Made by a program: the position numbers and the translations under genes | Notes under the pieces: generated by a model | The model's input: only the letters and a program-made list of their open reading frames with translations | Told to the model about the DNA's origin: nothing | The model's database searches: none | Shown: positions 3,079 through 62,639 of the stretch, in pieces | Numbering within the stretch: position 1 is the stretch's first letter | How the letters are laid out: every line of letters starts with the position of its first letter | DNA from: an uncultured Pelagibacteraceae bacterium | GTDB lineage: Bacteria; Pseudomonadota; Alphaproteobacteria; Pelagibacterales; Pelagibacteraceae | DNA: 64,000 bases | Direction of reading: 5' to 3' | NCBI GenBank assembly: GCA_902633185.1 | Contig: CACPFN010000005.1 | Location: 1 to 64,000, forward strand

Positions 3079-3927
3079 ATGGAGATAGTTACAAAAATTG
3101 CACCTATAGCGTTAGCCCTTATAATGTTAGGTCTTGGATTGGGCTTATCAACTAGAGATTTTTTAAGAGTTATAAATAATCCAAAAGATTTTACAGTCGG
3201 AATAATTTGTCAATTAATCCTTCTCCCAATCGTCGCTTATATTTTACTTTTAATATTAAGATTACCAGTTGAATTAGCTTTAGGATTAATGATTATTGCT
3301 GCTGCTCCTGGAGGAGTAACATCAAATGTCTTAACAAAATTTGCAAATGGAGATGTTGCATTATCTATTTCGTTAACAGCAATAGGTAGTTTAATTAGTA
3401 TTTTTTCTGTTCCATTTATTGTTTTTTCTTCAGCCAAATTATTAGGTGTAACTGATTTATCCTCAGATATTACGATGACTGGTATTGCTCTTAAAATGGC
3501 ACTAGTTGTAACTGTGCCAGTAATTCTTGGAATGATAATTAGAAGTTTCGCTGAAAACTTTATTTCGTCTAATATTAATATTGTAAATAGAATTACAGGC
3601 ATTTTATTTATTGTTGTATTTGCAGCAATATGGATTGAGGAAAGAGAAAATATAATATCATACTTAGGTCAAGCGGGTTTAGCTGTTTTAATATTAAACG
3701 TAGTCATGATGACTTTGTCATTTTATATTGCAAAAGGTTTTGCAACTGGAATACCACAGAGAAAATGTATTTCTTTAGAATGTGGATTACAAAATGGAAC
3801 TTTAGCTGTATTTGTAGCAACACAAATTTTCAATGATGTCGCTTACATGGTTCCAACAGCTGCTTACGCATTAATAATGTATATAACTGGATTTATATTT
3901 ATATATATTCTTAAAAATTCTAATTAA
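3079..3927 (+). CDS. Bile acid:sodium symporter (BASS) family transporter
   Basis: Multi-TM protein with BASS-type motifs (GLGLSTRDF, AAPGGVTSNVLTKFANGDVALS, ECGLQNGTLA). Confidence 0.75.
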   Translation: MEIVTKIAPIALALIMLGLGLGLSTRDFLRVINNPKDFTVGIICQLILLPIVAYILLLILRLPVELALGLMIIAAAPGGVTSNVLTKFANGDVALSISLTAIGSLISIFSVPFIVFSSAKLLGVTDLSSDITMTGIALKMALVVTVPVILGMIIRSFAENFISSNINIVNRITGILFIVVFAAIWIEERENIISYLGQAGLAVLILNVVMMTLSFYIAKGFATGIPQRKCISLECGLQNGTLAVFVATQIFNDVAYMVPTAAYALIMYITGFIFIYILKNSN

Positions 3928-4882
3928 GATTTATTTGATTGTAGGTTCTTTTTATAAAAACATTTATTGATTTTAAATTTTCATCTTGGATTATCGACAT
4001 ATCTTTAAAATTTTGTTTGCTGACATCAAAATTTATCAATTTATTTTTGTCTAAAGAAATAAATTTATTTTTAGTTAATTTCTTGATTTTTCTTACTACT
4101 GTTGGTCTTGGTATTCCTGTTATTTCAGAAATAGACATTGCATTAATTCCTTTTATTTTTTTATTAATAATTTTATCTCTCCATTTATCTAAATAACTAT
4201 CAACTCCTTTAAGTTGCCTTCCAATTTTTGAATTATTATTCAAAATTATAGTTGCTAAAATAGTAAATATTTCCATATCACCAAAATAATTTTTCCACCT
4301 TAAGCAGTACGGGAATAAAAATTTATAAAATTGATACCAGCAAAATGAGAAATTATGTTTTATTAAGTTATTAATTTCATTACTGGTCATTTCGTTTTTT
4401 ATAACTTTTTCTTCTTTTAAAATTTGACTAAAAACTGATAAAAGTGTGCATATATTTTTTAATGTATCATTTGGCTGTGTTGAATTGTAAGCACTTCTAT
4501 CTATTGTAATCTTCTTGCCCTTTTTTTTAATTATTCCCTTTTTTTCCAGGGATATAACTTTTCTTCTGACACTTTCTTTTGGTATTTTAAGATCCTTTGA
4601 TATTCTTATAAGGTTAATTTTCTCAATCTCTAATGTTTTGTCCTTATAAAAATTATTAAAAGTAATATTTAAATTATTTCGCCTGTAAAAATCAAACTGC
4701 TTACTAATCAAATAAATTAAAATCGTGTAAGTATCTATATCTTTAAACACTTTATAAGCACCGATTGTCCATTCAGACATAAGTTTTAAAAAAAAAGGAC
4801 TTAAAATATCAAAATGATTTTTGAAAATTTTATCGATCAGTTCATCATCTAGTTCGGAATTTACACTTGGTAGCTGCTTCAT
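3920..4882 (-). CDS. Putative transcriptional regulator with two winged-HTH-like segments
   Basis: Two internal HTH-like blocks: 'ISKDLKIPKESVRRKVISLEKKGIIKKKGKKITID' and 'ISEITGIPRPTVVRKIKKLTKNKFISLDKNKLINFD'. Confidence 0.6.
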   Translation of the reverse strand: MKQLPSVNSELDDELIDKIFKNHFDILSPFFLKLMSEWTIGAYKVFKDIDTYTILIYLISKQFDFYRRNNLNITFNNFYKDKTLEIEKINLIRISKDLKIPKESVRRKVISLEKKGIIKKKGKKITIDRSAYNSTQPNDTLKNICTLLSVFSQILKEEKVIKNEMTSNEINNLIKHNFSFCWYQFYKFLFPYCLRWKNYFGDMEIFTILATIILNNNSKIGRQLKGVDSYLDKWRDKIINKKIKGINAMSISEITGIPRPTVVRKIKKLTKNKFISLDKNKLINFDVSKQNFKDMSIIQDENLKSINVFIKRTYNQINLN

Positions 4883-57245: not shown

Positions 57246-59837
57246 ATGAAATTATCTGAATTATTTGAGCAAAATGGCTTTGATTTAGGAAATCTAAAAG
57301 AATCCTTTGGATTAATAGATAGAATATCAGAACATATAATAGCTGAAAGTGATGAAGTTTTAGCAAAGCAGCATCAAATTTCAGAAAACATTTATTTTTT
57401 AATTAAAGGCAAAGCTACATTTACCAAGTATTTTGAAACAAAATCTATAACCTTTGCAAAAATAACAAAGCCTGCAACCCCATTAGGTATATCTGGACTT
57501 AATCAACCCAATAGATTTATGGGTGAAATATTTATTGAAGGTGGAACAGAATATATCTCGATAAAACTAAATGATTTAAGAGATTTACAACAAAAAAATA
57601 GTAAACTTATATCAACATTATACTCAGCCATTTCGTTTTTTTCTTTCCAACTGCTTGTCTCTTCAAGAAATTTAAACACTTTGTATAAAGATGATGAAAT
57701 ACAAATTTCTCCAGGTATCCCATCAGAAAAAAGTATTACAAATATACATAGAATTAAATCTGCTACTTTTTTCTCAACACTTACTGATGATGACTTAGAA
57801 AAGTTTATTAAATTAGGCAACATTAAGATGTATTCATCTAATCAATATATAGTTAAAGAGGGAGACGTTTCTAAAGGTTTAAAGATGTTATTAAGTGGTA
57901 AAGTTGATGGCTTATTCCACAACTTTATTAATGGAAAAATAAGAAGAAATTTTAGAACTTTAACTAGAGCTGGTATTGCGCTAACTTTATCTTCAGGGAA
58001 AGGAGATTTTTTTAATCCATATACAATTAAATCTACTAGGGATACAAAAGTTTTACATATTTCTAACGAAGCACTCGAAAATCTGATTATTTCTGATCCT
58101 GAATTATCAATAAAGATTTTCAAAAGACAATTGTGGCAGCTAGGACGTTTCCAACAAAGTGCTACTGGCCTAACAAAGTATTCAGCTGAAAACGAATTAG
58201 AATTTGTTAATTTATTATTGAAAGATAATACTGCAAGAATACCTGCTAGTTCTAAGTTATATAGTATTCCACATTTATTGAAGAGTAATCATACCTATGC
58301 AATGGCATTTGATGTGGTTTACGAACTACTTATTAAAGGAAATGAAATAGAAAAATCATTATCTAGTTTAATAAAAGATACTTTAAATAATTTAGAAAGA
58401 GAGTCTCGTTTCCACAGCCAATTAAATATTATTTATAATAGAGTATCTAATTCATCTAATAATTCAGATAAAACAAAATTAAGAGAGCTAACCAATTCAA
58501 ATTTCACCAAAGCTTTTGATAATGTTAAATATGTAATAAAGGGTTGGGAAAATTTACCAGATGAACCAACAAATATTTTTTTTTACAATCACTTAGCTGC
58601 TATAGATGATAATCAGCTTGCAAATGGGCATTCATTTTCAATCGATAGTCATTTCATCAGTTCAAAAATATTACATCCAAAATATAATGATGGAGGCCAA
58701 CGTATCGTTAGAACAAGTCGGAACACAGAATTTTGGAGATATAATTACTATGAAAATTTAGATTACATTTTTGTTCATACCCCAGAGTCTGATAAGTTGG
58801 ACGAAAGCGAAGAGGAAAAGAAATTAAGAAAACAAAAGCTTTTTGAAGAAGCTCAAAAGGTATTTGATCAAAAACAACCGATTGTAATTGCCCCCGAAGG
58901 AACATCAGAAACAGAAGATAATAAAACAATAACATCTCCAGGACCATTTAAAGCTGGAGCATTTAACCTTGCATTTAAACTTAACCCAAAACCAAAACTT
59001 ATTCCAATTGCCCTTGCTAATTTTGATTATCCAGTTTCTAAAACAATATATTCAGCAGTCATTAAGGAGCCAATAACTATAAGTGATCATGTCAAAGATC
59101 CAGAAAATCAAGAGGAAATGAAAAGCTTCTTAGATAATTACAGAACCAAATTTAGATCTTATGTAGAAGAAGCAATTGATTTGGCTAAAAATGTTCAAGA
59201 TAATTTAGATAAAATAGAGAATTTGAAAACTAATGTAAACTTAGTCAGTCCAGTTGAAGAAGAGTTTGAATTAGATGTTAGAGAATTAGAACATAATTCT
59301 TTTCAACAGACAAAAACAAATAACAGTGTTGCACTGTATGGAAGTTCGACTTTTAAAATGTGGGATAATGCCAAAAATGATTTATCAATAAATAATCTTT
59401 ATAATTTAGGTTTTGGAGGCTCAACTTTAGTATCTTGTAGAAGATATTTTGATAGATTGGTTGCTCCTTTAAACCCATCTAATCTTTTCTTTTATGCTGG
59501 AGATAATGATATTGGTTATGGAATGGATAGCGATGAATTGTTGAAAGAATTTTTATTATTTTCTAATCAAGTTGAAGAAAAATTGCCAAGAGCAAAATGT
59601 TTTTTTATTTCAATTAAGCCTAGTCCCTTTAGAAGGGATCTTATGACAACAATTTTAGATGCTAATTCTAAGATAAAAAAACACTTAACCAATTTAAAAA
59701 TGTGGGATTATGTTGATATTACAACACCCATGATAAATGCAGGTTATGATAAGTTTTACGATGAAGATCCACTACATATGAACGAACTTGGATATAGTTT
59801 GTTAAGTAAGCTTGTAAGAGATAAAATTTACAATTAA
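57246..59837 (+). CDS. Multidomain protein: two cNMP-binding-like domains + PlsC-type acyltransferase + SGNH/GDSL hydrolase
   Basis: cNMP-like 'YIVKEGDVSKGLKMLLSGKVDGLF'; PlsC 'NHLAAIDD' (H-X4-D) and 'APEGTSE'; SGNH 'ALYGSSTFKMW', 'FYAGDNDIGYGM', 'DPLHMNELGY'. Confidence 0.8.
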   Translation: MKLSELFEQNGFDLGNLKESFGLIDRISEHIIAESDEVLAKQHQISENIYFLIKGKATFTKYFETKSITFAKITKPATPLGISGLNQPNRFMGEIFIEGGTEYISIKLNDLRDLQQKNSKLISTLYSAISFFSFQLLVSSRNLNTLYKDDEIQISPGIPSEKSITNIHRIKSATFFSTLTDDDLEKFIKLGNIKMYSSNQYIVKEGDVSKGLKMLLSGKVDGLFHNFINGKIRRNFRTLTRAGIALTLSSGKGDFFNPYTIKSTRDTKVLHISNEALENLIISDPELSIKIFKRQLWQLGRFQQSATGLTKYSAENELEFVNLLLKDNTARIPASSKLYSIPHLLKSNHTYAMAFDVVYELLIKGNEIEKSLSSLIKDTLNNLERESRFHSQLNIIYNRVSNSSNNSDKTKLRELTNSNFTKAFDNVKYVIKGWENLPDEPTNIFFYNHLAAIDDNQLANGHSFSIDSHFISSKILHPKYNDGGQRIVRTSRNTEFWRYNYYENLDYIFVHTPESDKLDESEEEKKLRKQKLFEEAQKVFDQKQPIVIAPEGTSETEDNKTITSPGPFKAGAFNLAFKLNPKPKLIPIALANFDYPVSKTIYSAVIKEPITISDHVKDPENQEEMKSFLDNYRTKFRSYVEEAIDLAKNVQDNLDKIENLKTNVNLVSPVEEEFELDVRELEHNSFQQTKTNNSVALYGSSTFKMWDNAKNDLSINNLYNLGFGGSTLVSCRRYFDRLVAPLNPSNLFFYAGDNDIGYGMDSDELLKEFLLFSNQVEEKLPRAKCFFISIKPSPFRRDLMTTILDANSKIKKHLTNLKMWDYVDITTPMINAGYDKFYDEDPLHMNELGYSLLSKLVRDKIYN

Positions 59838-59846
59838 TATTTTTTA

Positions 59847-60389
59847 ATGAGTTTTAAAAAATATCTATGGAAATGTAGATTGTTAGTCCTCAATACACCT
59901 AATTACAGTCATCCAGAATATAAAAGGTCAAAAGATTTGTATCAAAAAGACATCAAAGGGTTTCACAAAAGATACATAAAATTAGTTACAAAATTAGATA
60001 AATCAAAAAAATTTAAAGTTACTTTAATTGGTTTTGATGGCACAATAAAAATTGAGTTAGATCAAATATATACAAAAAAAATCTTCGAAATAGTCGATAA
60101 AATGCCAATGAATAAACTAATCAAAGATAAAAAATTTAAACCATTAAATCTTTCTTTATTTTCAGATTATAAACCAGAGACAACCTTAAAAGGTTTAGGT
60201 TTTAAAGATAAGGAGAAAGCATTGTTTACTGTTTCAGCCATAAAAAAGAGACCAATAAAATATCAAGTAAATGTTATTGCAACTATGCTAGGTAGAGCTA
60301 AAAATCATCCAAATAAAACAAAAGACATGAATGATGCTATAGTAGTTTTTAAAAAATGGATGGAAAATTACAAAGCAAATAAAAAATGA
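59847..60389 (+). CDS. DUF4174-like N-terminal region plus a second small conserved-looking domain
   Basis: 'KYLWKCRLLVLNTPN...VTLIGFDGTIKIELDQIYTKKIFEIVDKMPMNKLIKDKK' resembles DUF4174; C-terminal 'TLKGLGFKDKEKALFTVSAIKKRPIKYQVNVIATMLGRAKNHPNKTKDMNDAIVVFKKW'. Confidence 0.6.
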   Translation: MSFKKYLWKCRLLVLNTPNYSHPEYKRSKDLYQKDIKGFHKRYIKLVTKLDKSKKFKVTLIGFDGTIKIELDQIYTKKIFEIVDKMPMNKLIKDKKFKPLNLSLFSDYKPETTLKGLGFKDKEKALFTVSAIKKRPIKYQVNVIATMLGRAKNHPNKTKDMNDAIVVFKKWMENYKANKK

Positions 60390-60913
60390 AAAATAAAGGT
60401 TTCACATTAATAGAACTTTTAGTTGTTGTTGCAATAATTGGGATTTTAGCTGCAGTAGGGGTAGTTGCCTATAGCGGTTATACTAAAGGTGCTAAAGAAA
60501 CAGTTCTTAAAAACAATCATAAAACTTTATATAAAGAATTAATAAAGGACATTACTAATTGTGAGCTTAACGGAAAGTTGGAGAGATATACTTGGAGTAG
60601 TGGATCTATTAAAACCTACACATATGGAGCAGGTGGGAGTAGCGGATGTAGAACTGCATTTGATCAAGGAGTATTACAACAGCACTTTTATTATGTTGGC
60701 TTAAAAGATCCAATTATTAATCTTGCAGGTATATGCAACTCTAAATGTATGGATGGGGGAGCTGTATGGGCGGGTCCGCCATTTGAATTTAAAGGATATT
60801 ATAAGGTCGGAAAAACATTTGTTGAGAATAAAGGTAACACATTAACACTAACAACGTATATGACAGACAAAACAACTAAAATAGAAAATTCATTAATTAT
60901 ACCTAATTTTTAA
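60386..60913 (+). CDS. Type IV pilin / pseudopilin
   Basis: Prepilin signature MKNKGFTLIELLVVVAIIGILAAVGVVAYSGYTKGAKE. Confidence 0.9.
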   Translation: MKNKGFTLIELLVVVAIIGILAAVGVVAYSGYTKGAKETVLKNNHKTLYKELIKDITNCELNGKLERYTWSSGSIKTYTYGAGGSSGCRTAFDQGVLQQHFYYVGLKDPIINLAGICNSKCMDGGAVWAGPPFEFKGYYKVGKTFVENKGNTLTLTTYMTDKTTKIENSLIIPNF

Positions 60914-61211: not shown

Positions 61212-62639
61212 ATGAAAAAAATTATCTTCTTTTTTCTCAGTATTTTATCAGTATTTAATTATGCAAACGCTAAAGATTTTTTCTTAAATATAACTGATCA
61301 AATATCAGAAAATGAGTTTCGATTAAGCTATGGAGTTTCAGTTACCGATGTTAACAAAGATAATAAATATGATTTTGTAGTAACTGGTTTTGGTTTCAAA
61401 AATTTAGCCCTATCTTATAAAGATGGAAAATTAATAAATATAATAAATGAAAAAATATTTACAGATGAAGAAAGAAGAACAATTGGTGTTGCCGCATGTG
61501 ATATCGATCAAGATGGTTATGAGGAAATATATTTTTTAAATACTGATACATATAGTGGATCAAAAATTTATTCTGATCGACTAATAGATTTAAATAACAA
61601 TAAATTCGAAGATTTATTTGAAAAAGAAATTAATCAAAGTGAATTAAATTTAACAGCTGGAAGGTCAGTTGTTTGTGTAGATAGAAATGGTGATGGTGCA
61701 TATGGTATTTACGTTGCAAATTATGGTGGTCCAACTCGATTTTATGAATTAATTAGAGATCGAATAAAGGACCAAGCTAAATCATTATCAATTGATAAAA
61801 TTACCGGAGGTAGAGCAATAGTGTCTGGACATATTCTTTCAGATAGATCTGATATTTTTGCTGCAAATGAAAGAGGAGATAACTTTTTATATTATAATTC
61901 TAAAGGTTCTTTCCAAGATGTGGCTAAAGAGTATGCAGTTCAAGATAGATTTGAAAATGGTAGAGGAACAGCTTTAAGTGATATTTTATATAGAGGACGA
62001 TTAGATATTTTATCTTCTAACTGGGATGGAATGCATAGAGCATATGTTTTAGATGGAGATAAATTTAAAGATATATCAACATCTCCATATAACGATCCCA
62101 CAAAAATAAGAACAGTTATTTCAGCTGATTTTGATAATGACGGATACGATGAAATTTTTATGAATAATATTGGAGAACCAAATAAACTTTTCAAAGTTTT
62201 AGAGGGAGGAGTATTTAAAGAAATTAAAATGGAAAATGGTCTTGAGGCTGTTGGACTTGGAACTGGTGCAGCTGTTGCAGATGTTGACGGTGATGGAATT
62301 TTAGAATTATTAGTTTCACATGGTGAGTCAGGGTTTCAACCATTAACTTTATATAAAGCAGATATTAAAAATTTTAATTATTTAAGAATTAAGCCTCTTA
62401 ATCAATTTGGAGCACCTGCAAGAGGTGCAACAGTAACAATGAAATCTAATAAAAGAATTCATTCAAAAACAATAGATGCAGGTTCAGGATATCTCTGTCA
62501 GATGGAACCAGTAGCTCATTATGGAATAAGAAAAGATGAAAAAGATTTTAAAGTTGAAATTAAATGGACTGATGGATCAATAGAATCATTTGATATTGAT
62601 GAATTAAATAAAACTTACGAATTTAGACAAAAACTATAG
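61212..62639 (+). CDS. Exported FG-GAP/VCBS beta-propeller protein with ASPIC/UnbV-type C-terminus (CRTAC1-like)
   Basis: Signal peptide; Ca-binding repeats DVNKDNKYD, DIDQDGYEE, DRNGDGAYG, DFDNDGYDE, DVDGDGILE; C-terminal 'NQFGAPARGATVTMKSNKRIHSKTIDAGSGYLCQMEPVAHYGI'. Confidence 0.85.
   Translation: MKKIIFFFLSILSVFNYANAKDFFLNITDQISENEFRLSYGVSVTDVNKDNKYDFVVTGFGFKNLALSYKDGKLINIINEKIFTDEERRTIGVAACDIDQDGYEEIYFLNTDTYSGSKIYSDRLIDLNNNKFEDLFEKEINQSELNLTAGRSVVCVDRNGDGAYGIYVANYGGPTRFYELIRDRIKDQAKSLSIDKITGGRAIVSGHILSDRSDIFAANERGDNFLYYNSKGSFQDVAKEYAVQDRFENGRGTALSDILYRGRLDILSSNWDGMHRAYVLDGDKFKDISTSPYNDPTKIRTVISADFDNDGYDEIFMNNIGEPNKLFKVLEGGVFKEIKMENGLEAVGLGTGAAVADVDGDGILELLVSHGESGFQPLTLYKADIKNFNYLRIKPLNQFGAPARGATVTMKSNKRIHSKTIDAGSGYLCQMEPVAHYGIRKDEKDFKVEIKWTDGSIESFDIDELNKTYEFRQKL

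Follow-up and report, generated by a model that had tools for sequence, protein, structure and literature searches.

A fusion of tandem CNB sensor, PlsC-type acyltransferase and SGNH hydrolase domains in SAR11 bacteria: a possible ligand-gated acyl-editing enzyme

Background

The closest described systems share parts with the protein considered here. Neuropathy target esterase-type proteins combine cyclic-nucleotide-binding (CNB) domains with a patatin phospholipase. AT3 proteins are integral membrane acyltransferases that work across the membrane. E. coli TesA is an SGNH enzyme that acts as a thioesterase and as a lysophospholipase. The SAR11 bacteria, in which our target gene resides, have small genomes with few regulators. 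The altered CNB cassettes of the trypanosomatid PKA regulatory subunit bind purine nucleosides instead of cAMP (PMC10959531).

We analyzed a stretch of 64,000 nucleotides from an uncultured Pelagibacteraceae bacterium (contig CACPFN010000005.1, positions 1 to 64,000), referred to below as the window. One of its genes encodes a 99-kDa protein in which two CNB domains and a helical region are followed by a PlsC-type acyltransferase domain and an SGNH hydrolase domain (Table 1). Each of these domains is already known. Searches of open-access papers turned up no description of their combination, of the altered PlsC motif or of the exchange of one esterase partner for another; to the first-pass annotation of this DNA, too, the architecture is not known to be characterized. 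Judged from sequence, the protein may work in the cytosol as an acyl-editing enzyme, gated by a ligand, in which transfer of acyl groups is coupled to deacylation, a reading to which we give slightly less than an even chance.

Table 1. Coordinates of the fusion gene, its domains and candidate site residues, and the adjoining gene in the window
Feature	Position	Strand	Evidence
Fusion gene, 863-aa CNB-CNB-helical-PlsC-SGNH protein	57246..59837	+	Open for 863 codons; coordinates include the stop codon; Pfam; orthologues
CNB1, residues ~20-145	57303..57680	+	Two Pfam cNMP_binding stretches; Foldseek to tandem CNB; PDB profile matches
CNB1 phosphate-binding-cassette equivalent, G81-I-S-G-L-N-Q-P-N-R90	57486..57515	+	Alignment; consensus GWSxxxxPxRY
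CNB2, residues ~165-300	57738..58145	+	Pfam 195-282; alignment; cassette Arg absent
Conserved helical region, residues ~301-417	58146..58496	+	Alignment; helices in AlphaFold2 model despite low pLDDT
PlsC/LPLAT-type acyltransferase domain, residues ~418-655	58497..59210	+	Pfam; hhalign; Foldseek
His449, candidate catalytic His	58590..58592	+	19/22 rows; Ser in f118
Asp454, HX4D Asp	58605..58607	+	D in only 3/22 family rows
Asp467, conserved acidic residue	58644..58646	+	19/22 rows; Cys in f118
Block with Arg486, Arg489, Glu495	58701..58730	+	R486 and E495 lost with H449 and D467 in f118
PEG motif, residues 550-552, acyltransferase block III	58893..58901	+	Invariant, 22/22
SGNH/GDSL hydrolase domain, residues ~672-863	59259..59834	+	Pfam; profile matches to solved structures
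Ser701, candidate nucleophile (GSS)	59346..59348	+	Alignment
Asn754 (GDND, block III)	59505..59507	+	Alignment
Asp841-Pro-Leu-His844 (DxxH, block V)	59766..59777	+	Alignment
DUF4174 gene	59847..60389	+	9 bp downstream of fusion gene; Pfam DUF4174 E 6e-12

Results and Discussion

The first-pass annotation had named a frameshift or an assembly chimera among the things that would refute its reading. Both are ruled out by copies of equal length in dozens of separately sequenced cells, and the ratio pN/pS within the SAR11 clade lies between 0.03 and 0.16 in each domain, so that every domain of the protein is under strong purifying selection. All Pfam matches in the protein (cNMP_binding, Acyltransferase and Lipase_GDSL_2) exceed the curated cut-offs and, with fold matches for the CNB and PlsC parts, they bear out the two cNMP-like domains, the acyltransferase and the SGNH hydrolase that the annotation had read from the letters. 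The helical region has no Pfam match and a pN/pS of 0.046 in the SAR11 clade. The most hydrophobic stretch averages only 1.5 over a 19-residue Kyte-Doolittle window, which gives no clear transmembrane segment. The structural check that had been proposed, made here with AlphaFold2 and Foldseek, succeeded in part: the folds were matched, but the models, built on shallow alignments, are too weak for the geometry of the catalytic sites, that of H449 and D467 included, with a pLDDT of 59 for the full-length protein and of 55 for the PlsC domain alone.

We found 117 relatives in a genome collection and kept 80. Some 50 of these are SAR11 single-cell loci with syntenic full-length copies at 85-99% identity, and about 30 are loci labeled uncultured Alphaproteobacteria, at 55-57% identity, which form a second marine clade. 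Within the genus of the host the gene is present in 20 of 300 genomes (8 of the 44 near-complete ones); in the order of the second clade it occurs in 39 of 120 sampled genomes, all 39 within one genus. Full-length relatives at about 30% identity were found in the alphaproteobacterial family f118 and in the gammaproteobacterial family f212, where each of the five species sampled from a single genus has one. The survey suggested earlier thus carried the architecture well beyond the host. Relatives in f186, f66 and f389 consist of the core only and are without SGNH, and a megaplasmid of Persicobacter (Bacteroidota) carries a core gene of 655 aa followed, 1 bp on, by a separate SGNH gene of 209 aa. 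Across these relatives the conserved core of the family is CNB-CNB-helical-PlsC. We noted a PAP2 phosphatase gene upstream of the Persicobacter pair (L162 6523-7383), a possible lipid context, and a stop codon that parts the first CNB from CNB2-PlsC in the f66 locus L125 (2080-3558 and 3562-5040), where the gene is split or the sequence is in error. A viral or mobile origin was rejected, with zero matches among the phage and viral collections searched. We also rejected a recent sweep of an unusually identical gene: the flanking genes in SAR11 are as identical (~92-99%) as the fusion gene, and the high identity therefore reflects related hosts.

The DUF4174 gene (Table 1) is retained in the SAR11 loci and does not adjoin the fusion gene in the second clade; it is probably an operon partner in SAR11 only. 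In the SGNH-fused lineages the neighboring genes are not lipid genes. Other features of the region were recorded for their own sake. Just 3' of the DUF4174 gene lies a type IV pilin-like gene (60386-60913, with a GFTLIELLVVVAIIGILAAVG leader), and its position (see also L131 5603-6659) is a small variable spot: other SAR11 loci hold there two copies, a copy only ~37-40% identical, or none, between highly conserved flanks. The gene at 61212-62639 encodes FG-GAP / UnbV_ASPIC repeats, probably behind a signal peptide, and is conserved in the SAR11 carriers of the fusion gene, and an ORF at 3920-4882 of the window appears by eye to be a tandem duplicate of winged-helix DNA-binding halves.

The sensor part was matched by Pfam cNMP_binding (PF00027) in two stretches (E 9e-9), the better of them at residues 195-282. 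The weak full-length model matched the tandem CNB domains of PKG and PKA-R in Foldseek (E 2e-12), and a CNB1 profile matched 3mdp and PKG/PKA-R in the PDB. A canonical phosphate-binding cassette holds a Glu for the ribose and an Arg for the phosphate, and neither domain has this pair: CNB1 keeps the phosphate Arg as Arg90 and is missing the ribose Glu, and CNB2 has neither residue. All 21 rows, a different phylum included, share G81, S83, P88 and R90 in CNB1. The residues lend no support to the cyclic-nucleotide sensing that had been proposed for the protein, and of the two domains it is CNB2, not CNB1 as the annotation had it, whose cassette is the more degenerate. Because CNB1 is without the cassette Glu and CNB2 without the Arg, we would not take cAMP or cGMP as the default ligand, and classical cAMP binding appears doubtful. 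As a separate observation, the class of genome G709 is unusually rich in CNB, with CNB-like matches in 48 of 48 genomes and often 5-13 per genome.

Pfam Acyltransferase (PF01553) matches residues 502-590 (E 3e-7, 30.8 bits vs a cut-off of 23), and among relatives L128, L129 and L162 score above this cut-off and L122, L126, L123 and L124 below it. With hhalign, a core-family profile aligns to canonical PlsC (E 1e-6, prob 91). The best PDB match of the low-confidence PlsC-domain model in Foldseek is TmPlsC (5KYM, prob 0.99), and its top eight matches all have the PlsC/GPAT/PatA fold. The match to TIGR00530 (1-acylglycerol-3-phosphate acyltransferase) reaches 21.5 bits, under the curated cut-off of 102.95. 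The one other PF01553 match in the incomplete host assembly is a canonical PlsC, and the fusion protein would therefore be an accessory enzyme.

The HX4D motif that had been read in NHLAAIDD is indeed complete in the SAR11 protein, but in an alignment of 22 diverse family rows its Asp position holds D in only 3 rows, against E in 6 and some other residue in the remaining 13, and HX4D was rejected as the catalytic motif of the family since this Asp is not conserved. His449, Asp467, Arg486 and Glu495 are kept in 19 of the 22 rows and replaced jointly in the three f118 proteins, which also miss about 18 residues near the site. With the HX4D Asp unconserved and these four residues kept, the site of the family is therefore predicted to differ from that of textbook acyltransferases, and the joint loss in f118 looks as the loss of one working site would. 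An insertion might have moved the canonical Asp to position 467, but hhalign, which aligns D467 just before the second strand, does not support this. The f118 loci L095, L096 and L175 represent a natural loss of the PlsC site with the SGNH domain intact. An SGNH domain kept beside a broken PlsC site suggests that the two putative activities can be uncoupled, which counts against editing.

The hydrolase domain was matched by Lipase_GDSL_2 at residues 715-851 (E 1e-7), and its profile matched 6njc and 7pzg (sialate O-acetylesterase / lysophospholipase L1) at E 4e-16 as well as PAF-acetylhydrolase. The SGNH blocks I, II, III and V are complete, with S701, G724/G725, N754, D841 and H844 present in 14 of 14 fused copies. 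The SGNH-less loci offered a second view of this partner. In seven of seven (L125, L128, L129, L177, L185, L186 and L187) a gene for an AXE1-family alpha/beta hydrolase, from an ester deacetylase family and not a thioesterase family, lies nearby, vs 0 of 14 SGNH-carrying loci in the same search. It is adjacent and divergent in five loci, adjacent and convergent in one, and one gene apart in one; the seven loci represent three lineages, four coming from one family and two from another. The mutual identity of the AXE1 proteins is 41-72%, and the link between AXE1 and the core must therefore be old. In a tree of the CNB2-PlsC region, where long branches meet and the order between groups is not firm, the SGNH-fused group (98/96) and the AXE1-linked group (88/91) are recovered and Persicobacter falls beside the latter. 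An esterase accompanies the core in every case examined, whether as fused SGNH, as the next-gene SGNH of Persicobacter or as nearby AXE1. Quite apart from the fusion, this swap is evidence for a tie between acyl transfer and deacylation. As the bond to be hydrolyzed, a short-chain ester would be a sensible initial guess, since the top solved structures matched by the SGNH domain include a named sialate O-acetylesterase and AXE1 is also of a deacetylase family.

In the proposed mechanism the tandem CNB domains would bind a small ligand, probably not classical cAMP or cGMP, and switch the catalytic half from one state to another. Through His449 and a rearranged acidic partner, the PlsC-type domain would acylate an acceptor that is a lipid or resembles one, and the SGNH domain would hydrolyze an acyl ester of that molecule or of a related one; deacylation and reacylation would thereby be coupled, as in the Lands cycle. 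The analysis establishes the domain anatomy, the conservation, the purifying selection and the steady company of a swappable esterase that the core keeps; we infer both catalytic activities, a substrate common to them, the gating and its ligand, and which way the acyl groups flow. Of what had been claimed, acyl addition and removal under one sensor comes out strengthened by the constant esterase partner, and the HX4D motif and the cyclic-nucleotide sensing have had to be revised. Against an editing enzyme stand also the placement of D467 before the second strand by hhalign and the neighbors of the SGNH-fused genes, which are not lipid genes.

Alternative explanations

The main rival holds that the PlsC part is a non-catalytic scaffold that binds lipid or acyl-CoA, and that catalysis falls to the esterase alone, be it SGNH or AXE1, with the CNB and PlsC-like parts as its regulators. 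In favor of a scaffold, the Asp of canonical HX4D is unconserved, f118 has kept SGNH without H449, D467, R486 and E495, and several members match the PlsC Pfam family weakly; against it, these four residues and PEG have, except in f118, been conserved while the family diverged very deeply, HX4D is present in the SAR11 copies too, and in the f186 and f389 members without a fused hydrolase PlsC is the sole enzyme-like domain of the protein. We regard a scaffold as unlikely, and the three explanations that follow as less likely than it. An accessory glycerophospholipid acyltransferase, in which a fused thioesterase-like SGNH domain provides acyl groups or trims them and plays no part in editing, would fit with the double activity of the SGNH enzyme TesA and with the separate PlsC kept by the host; we consider it improbable, as the alternative partner AXE1 comes from an ester deacetylase family and not from a thioesterase family.

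Two further explanations concern the sensor. The CNB domains could serve structure or dimerization only, in an enzyme that is constitutive and not ligand-gated, and the absence of the cassette Arg from CNB2 and of the canonical Glu from both cassettes points in this direction. The invariance of G81, S83, P88 and R90 of CNB1 in all 21 rows, up to a different phylum, argues otherwise, and a CNB domain whose cassette is altered may still bind something else, e.g. purine nucleosides in trypanosomatid PKA-R (PMC10959531); we consider a purely structural role unlikely. A defense effector of the Pycsar kind, whose CNB would sense an infection-induced cyclic pyrimidine nucleotide and whose lipid-active half would damage the membrane, was suggested by the weak CNB1 similarity of relatives to PycTIR effectors (PADLOC E 5e-6 for L126; PDB PycTIR E 1.5e-3). 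This similarity spans only about 45 residues, no cyclase gene was evident adjoining when the neighbor translations of the window and the fetched regions were read by eye, and the gene has a housekeeping look, present in 39 of 120 order genomes all in one marine genus and under uniform purifying selection, so that we find such an effector very improbable.

Returning to the acyl-editing enzyme, we tentatively suggest, as a possibility viewed with some doubt, that the family may be a previously undescribed sensor-controlled acyl-editing module, sparse but wide in at least two phyla, with a rearranged His449/Asp467 site in its CNB-CNB-PlsC core, a non-cAMP ligand and a constant but exchangeable esterase partner. 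If this is true, a small molecule would directly control membrane or glycolipid acyl editing in marine bacteria that are abundant and streamlined. In genomes as small and as poor in regulators as those of SAR11, strong selection on a 99-kDa sensor-enzyme, kept in part of the clade, suggests that some process involving lipids or acyl esters repays being controlled directly. The altered HX4D region and the altered cNMP cassettes make clear and cheap mutational tests possible.

Comparison with known systems

The acyltransferase domain shares with the PlsC/LPLAT superfamily (T. maritima PlsC 5KYM, squash GPAT 1IUQ, PatA 5OCE) its fold, the NH motif, the PEG block and the order of the blocks, but here the HX4D Asp is unconserved, the conserved Asp lies 18 residues past the His, there is an extra R/E block, the domain is fused to CNB and the score falls far under the TIGR00530 cut-off for AGP acyltransferases. 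The hydrolase domain has the Ser, Gly, Asn and DxxH blocks of SGNH/GDSL hydrolases of the O-acetylesterase / lysophospholipase L1 / PAF-acetylhydrolase type (6njc, 7pzg, 1wab); those are standalone proteins of ~200 residues, whereas this one is the C-terminal domain of a sensor-acyltransferase protein. Neuropathy target esterase-type proteins also link CNB domains to a lipid-cleaving enzyme, although their hydrolase has another fold and the acyltransferase domain is absent. AT3-SGNH fusions such as OatA, a group covered by a review (PMC9558356), carry an acyltransferase and an SGNH domain on one chain; the transferase here is instead PlsC-type and without a clear transmembrane segment, unlike the integral membrane AT3. 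Finally, the trypanosomatid PKA regulatory subunit (PMC10959531) resembles our protein in its tandem CNB domains with altered cassettes, in a system where cAMP is not used, and differs in being a kinase regulator in which the cassette Arg is missing at both sites, whereas CNB1 here keeps it.
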